Of a stretch of DNA of 6,338 bases, positions 2,138 through 4,083 are shown one piece after another. Source of the DNA: Actinomycetota bacterium. GTDB taxonomy: Bacteria; Actinomycetota; Thermoleophilia; Solirubrobacterales; Solirubrobacteraceae. Numbering within the stretch: the stretch's first letter is position 1; each line of letters starts with the position of its first letter. The DNA lies in contig CAJCIJ010000322.1 of NCBI GenBank assembly GCA_903970315.1, positions 1-6,338 on the forward strand. Reading direction: 5' to 3'. The notes beneath the pieces were generated by a model that was not told where the DNA came from, ran no database searches, and was given only the letters and a program-made list of their open reading frames with translations. A program made the position numbers and the translations under genes.

Positions 2138-4083
<1,946 letters not shown>

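Follow-up and report, generated by a model that had tools for sequence, protein, structure and literature searches.

A phenylalanine codon at the first N3 cysteine of a fused nuoEF gene probably reflects a wrong base in a draft genome

In complex I, the 51 kDa subunit (NuoF, Nqo1 or NDUFV1) carries FMN-binding, SLBB and NADH_4Fe-4S domains, and the cluster N3 passes electrons from FMN into the cluster chain of the complex. Mutants of the N3 ligands of E. coli NuoF have been published, as have cysteine-to-aromatic changes in other [4Fe-4S] proteins. The E. coli NuoF variants C351A and C354A have been used for chemical labelling (PMC10101131), and the available passages of that paper hold nothing on the cluster properties of these variants. 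In the corresponding part of NDUFV1, as described in the available passages of another paper, residue T423 lies two positions ahead of Cys425, on the loop that bears this cysteine and adjacent to N3 (PMC4614703). Our search of the literature for Cys-to-Phe cluster variants found none, and papers on DmsB, judged by their titles and the openings of their abstracts, offered no ligand mutants.

Here, we examine a contig in which the first N3 ligand is read as phenylalanine. The window (the whole stretch of DNA analysed, 6338 bases) makes up contig C322 of a 2.06 Mb genome split into 379 contigs. With a completeness of 63.11% and a contamination of 1.15%, the genome looks like a draft assembled from a metagenome. 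The organism probably stands near the order Solirubrobacterales, to judge by the source labels (Solirubrobacterales or Solirubrobacteraceae) of P0035 and P0050, two proteins with 83% identity to the window protein among the best 120 of 7,999 scored. The window shares with the described systems the nuoB-C-D-EF-G gene order, the three domains named above, three of the four N3 ligands and the HES and CREGT context; it differs from them in the fusion of nuoE with nuoF and, as assembled, in the Phe at the first ligand (Table 1). Single nuoE-nuoF reading frames also occur in P0001, P0003 to P0005 and some further homologues, and many of the listed homologues have the length of NuoF only. In nuoG, all 15 cysteines fall inside the first 270 residues.

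Table 1. Features of the window, and of the related loci discussed in the text, with their coordinates
Feature	Location	Positions	Strand	Basis or remark
nuoB, 3' part; 5' end lost at contig end	window	1..336	+	named by sequence and position, without profile
nuoC	window	342..860	+	Pfam Complex1_30kDa
nuoD	window	857..2128	+	Pfam Complex1_49kDa; NCBIfam TIGR01962 above cut-off
fused nuoE-nuoF, 648 aa, open throughout	window	2138..4084	+	Pfam 2Fe-2S_thioredx, Complex1_51K, SLBB, NADH_4Fe-4S
nuoEF codon 568, TTC (Phe), first N3 Cys ligand column	window	3839..3841	+	codon read; Cys codon in 56/56 relatives' loci
C571, second N3 ligand	window	3848..3850	+	Cys in 119/119 aligned homologues
C574, third N3 ligand	window	3857..3859	+	Cys in 119/119 aligned homologues
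C612, clade-wide Cys, 2 residues ahead of distal ligand C614	window	3971..3973	+	Cys in 119/119 homologues and 56/56 loci
C614, distal (fourth) N3 ligand	window	3977..3979	+	Cys in 119/119 aligned homologues; opposite distal Cys of 2fug_1
nuoG, reaches window end	window	4084..6336	+	NCBIfam TIGR01973 above cut-off
GC-rich palindrome, then GCCATCGCAAATGGAAGACACC, in frame in nuoG	window	5748-5787 (within about 5722-5824)		adds peptide like ARARVPSQMEDTQP
NuoF-like paralogue, Ala at first N3 Cys column	L002 (own genome)	792-2603	-	motif SAGQCGPC
NuoF-like paralogue, Ala at first N3 Cys column	L035 (own genome)	1024-2448	+	motif SAGQCGPC
Phe-motif match	L033 (NZ_JAFBAT010000171.1)	264-298	-	TTC at first N3 ligand

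The profiles of the FMN/NADH-binding 51K domain (PF01512, E 8.1e-44) and of the NADH_4Fe-4S domain (PF10589, E 3.2e-25) both score above their cut-offs on the window NuoF. Among the NCBIfam models, NF010120 exceeds its cut-off (462.3 bits against 389), TIGR01959 falls slightly under its own (545.8 against 558.65) and NF008436 also remains under it (396.2 against 749). The gene has nuoC and nuoD upstream and nuoG downstream, as expected of a nuo cluster. Three of the four N3 cysteines are present in the window as assembled and all four in P0001, the near-identical protein described below; the missing one is a mark against the assembled letters, not against the identity of the gene as nuoF.

Codon 568 of the fused reading frame is TTC, giving HESFGKCTPCREGT, and TTC differs from TGC by a single base. 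In the printed alignment with the solved NuoF chain 2fug_1, judged by eye, Phe568 stands opposite the Cys of YAHESCGKCTPCREG, and alignment with solved NuoF chains places it at the first Cys position of the SCGKCTPC motif; chain 8e9g_F, whose C-terminal part also matches, has Cys. The initial annotation, which had reported Phe at the first N3 ligand, was therefore exact in both residue and coordinates, and it was equally right that C571, C574 and C614 are kept and that the surrounding HES and CREGT residues are intact. The cysteines left in the N3 region of the window are 571, 574, 612 and 614.

The comparison of relatives at this column, which the initial annotation had proposed, returned cysteine throughout. 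We searched 61 genomes for nuoF (the window's own and 60 relatives), each of which gave some match, and compared the nuoF locus itself for 56 of these 60 (L004-L032, 29 loci; L036-L062, 27 loci, L062 being partial); G003, G004, G006 and G060 were left out of this set, their matches being only weaker ones to NuoF-like paralogues. The residue is Cys in 56/56 loci (TGC in 52, TGT in 4), including that of the closest relative genome, G005, whose NuoF is 91% identical and has TGC at codon 568. One of these loci, L058 (G057:C12:19643-20905), contains a single internal TAG in its nuoF match and has Cys at this column. A search of 5.8 billion proteins, in which 7,999 candidates were scored and the best 120 listed, gave Cys in 120/120. 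A second search was scored only on the 73 residues round the site and would favour a protein with Phe (best 120 of 7,999 candidates); pooled, the two best-120 listings comprise 215 distinct proteins, and Cys occupies the column in 215/215. The Pfam lists of three of these (P0166, P0168 and P0183) have the domain joined to others. P0002, a NuoF-like protein of 593 residues whose middle part is duplicated internally, is probably an assembly chimera. As a trait of the lineage Phe568 was thus found in 0/56 relatives' loci and in 0/215 homologues (best 120 per search).

For the Phe form itself, we scanned a genome collection of 84,980 species with one degenerate spelling of ESFGKCTPCREG, serine being written as TCN; the scan covered this one spelling and Phe replacement only, and may omit records from the window's own genome. 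It yielded one contig, L033, from a Mycobacterium sp. MAG. Its NuoF resembles that of the window in having Phe, encoded by TTC, at the identical position of an otherwise complete 446 aa ORF; it differs in genus, in its distant sequence and in being free of the nuoEF fusion, the preceding ORF being read as a separate NuoE. The L033 Phe is probably an independent error or allele. Phe568 is beyond the noise of its column, which is occupied by Cys throughout the 56 loci and the 215 proteins, and the other Phe came from the search directed at Phe.

The sequence closest to the window is P0001, a protein of 648 aa like the window's, from which it differs at three residues: 37 (Pro in P0001, Ala in the window), 256 (Ala, Glu) and 568 (Cys, Phe). 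Its gene lies on a 3979-base contig, and the source of the protein is printed as "-", as it is for the window's own proteins. P0001 may be another version of the window genome, or its sibling; as far as the protein sequences can tell, it shows that the organism of the window, or one very near to it, possesses the ordinary N3 ligand. Given the changes at 37 and 256, it may also come from another strain, in which case strain variation at 568 would be possible.

The condition of the contig was assessed by anchoring the relatives' rows to the window (NuoD 29, NuoE 29, NuoF 56, and 28 for the first 449 residues of NuoG) and retaining columns with at least 20 rows (256/423, 202/211, 413/417 and 442/449, respectively). 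Among these, 117, 40, 135 and 165 columns are invariant in the relatives, 457 in sum, and the window deviates at one of them, residue 568. Its private single changes come to one, in NuoF, with none in NuoD, NuoE or NuoG; an average row has 1.0, 0.77, 0.47 and 1.45 in NuoD, NuoE, NuoF and NuoG, respectively. A separate NuoF alignment of 119 homologues, from which P0002 was omitted because of its internal duplication, has 207/411 invariant columns, and here too the window departs at 568 alone. In 14/119 homologues, one or two columns that are invariant elsewhere hold a private change; the changes in the 12 of these that were inspected are mostly mild, Gly to His and Lys to Trp being exceptions, and none affects a Cys. 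A lone odd residue would thus appear common enough in such data, and a lost ligand unusual. The genes nuoC, nuoD, nuoEF and nuoG are all open, with no internal stop, and this, with the single deviation in 457 columns, rules out a decaying gene or an error-rich contig. The 457 invariant columns of NuoD, NuoE, NuoF and the N-terminal part of NuoG reveal no compensating ligand or co-varying residue for Phe568. We also looked for another intact nuoF in this genome and found none, the two other matches being paralogues of 29% identity (in a 63%-complete assembly this is a weak test), and a plasmid search gave no match.

We consider it probable (roughly 0.6) that the TTC at codon 568 is a wrong consensus base in the draft genome. 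The near-identical P0001, with three differences in all, has Cys at this very position, as do the 56 loci of the relatives and the 215 homologues (best 120 per search); the Phe-motif scan of 84,980 species, with its one spelling, produced one contig; the draft is 63.11% complete and lies in 379 contigs, with TTC one base away from TGC; and only one of 457 invariant columns deviates. A single event in a draft of low completeness also explains why nothing has changed together with residue 568. Several observations weigh on the other side. The contig is otherwise devoid of signs of error, its genes being open and its invariant columns holding no further odd residue; P0001 differs at 37 and 256 as well and may represent another strain; the L033 MAG carries the identical Phe, yet such repeats among very many genomes are also expected of errors; and a rare Phe could have been missed in homologue sets that are the best 120 of 7,999 candidates per search. 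This reading takes the genome to be a metagenome assembly of low or mixed coverage, and the base at codon 568 to be an error and not the true allele of one strain. The real NuoF of the organism would then have the usual four cysteines holding N3, which would be an ordinary [4Fe-4S] cluster accepting electrons from FMN, with nothing unusual in its ligation.

The strongest competitor, a tentative one to which we give about half as much credence, is that the sequenced strain, or part of its population, really carries Phe568 as a private missense allele, which would weaken or abolish N3 and the oxidation of NADH by complex I and would be headed for purging. It would suit a contig that is clean apart from 568, and P0001 demonstrates that near-identical sequences do have small differences; such an allele is expected to be rare, which matches the Cys of 56/56 loci and 215/215 proteins. 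On the same side, T423 of the homologous subunit in Yarrowia complex I, a residue beside N3, is taken up, in the available passages, in a section devoted to mutations abolishing expression of the complex (PMC4614703). The same uniformity of the column, however, speaks for strong purifying selection against any such change; the neighbouring genes are without sign of relaxed selection; and the 63%-complete assembly has no second full nuoF to stand in for a damaged one.

The extra cysteine C612 and the paralogues bear on whether Phe568 could be functional. C612, two residues ahead of the distal ligand, might by analogy with NDUFV1 T423 lie near the N3 cluster (PMC4614703, available passages), and the corresponding position in the three solved chains aligned is Ser or Thr. 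It is Cys, however, in 215/215 homologues (best 120 per search) and 56/56 loci, and because it there accompanies a normal Cys at 568 it is, on these alignments, a feature of the clade and not a compensation for Phe568; as a strain-specific replacement ligand it was ruled out, the relatives having it too. The paralogues in the window's own genome, L002 and L035, resemble the window NuoF in their Complex1_51K, SLBB and NADH_4Fe-4S domains and in lacking Cys at the first Cys column (their motifs are ESAGQCGPC and QSAGQCGPC); they differ from it in having Ala there, in an identity of 29% and in their gene neighbourhood, each adjoining a similar membrane protein, which for L002 matches a ferric reductase-like domain family. 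They show, so far as can be predicted, that the fold is possible without the first N3 Cys in other proteins, and at 29% identity they would not substitute for the NuoF of complex I.

It is very improbable, in spite of the position of C612 and the Ala of the paralogues, that Phe568 is functional, with N3 on C571, C574, C614 and another ligand, most plausibly C612, or as a three-iron cluster, since this needs in addition an enzyme that works on three of four ligands or recruits C612, and C612 did not arise as a replacement, P0001 has the normal ligand and no invariant column co-varies. Slightly harder still to credit is a working complex I of this kind, in which the first acceptor from FMN tolerates the loss of a ligand retained by the relatives. 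The initial annotation had left room for two readings; its suggestion of a sequence error or private mutation is supported by the Cys of P0001, of the 56 loci and of the 215 homologues, uniform Cys among the relatives being one half of an outcome that it had named as refuting. Its suggestion of a truly altered N3 has found no support, as none of the relatives compared shares the Phe, no ligand-like residue absent from the relatives is present and the Phe of L033 belongs to a MAG of another genus with a distant sequence.

A more promising lead in the window than Phe568 is the palindromic element in nuoG. The nuoG of G005 also contains the element, and, with 40 candidates scored in each genome, matches to the palindrome number 15 in the window's own genome (counting the one in the window), 16 in G005, 5 in G020 and 1 in G012; many of these are short and rich in CG. 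The best other copy is at L063 381-447 (91% over 67 bases), with shorter matches in L064, L065 and L066. The L063 copy is situated inside an ORF that is open across the 801-base locus, giving VRARARPSQMQDTHP, and by its sequence this ORF looks like an ftsK-like gene. The nuoG palindrome is similar to dispersed palindromic elements that code for protein.

Phe568 is probably not a real feature of the organism, and it would be at most a private allele. Were the Phe true, it would alter the cluster that feeds the electrons of FMN to the cluster chain, at a site whose four cysteines are kept in every one of the 56 loci and 215 proteins compared. The case shows that, when an odd residue occupies a catalytic column in a draft genome, near-identical sequences should be compared first.
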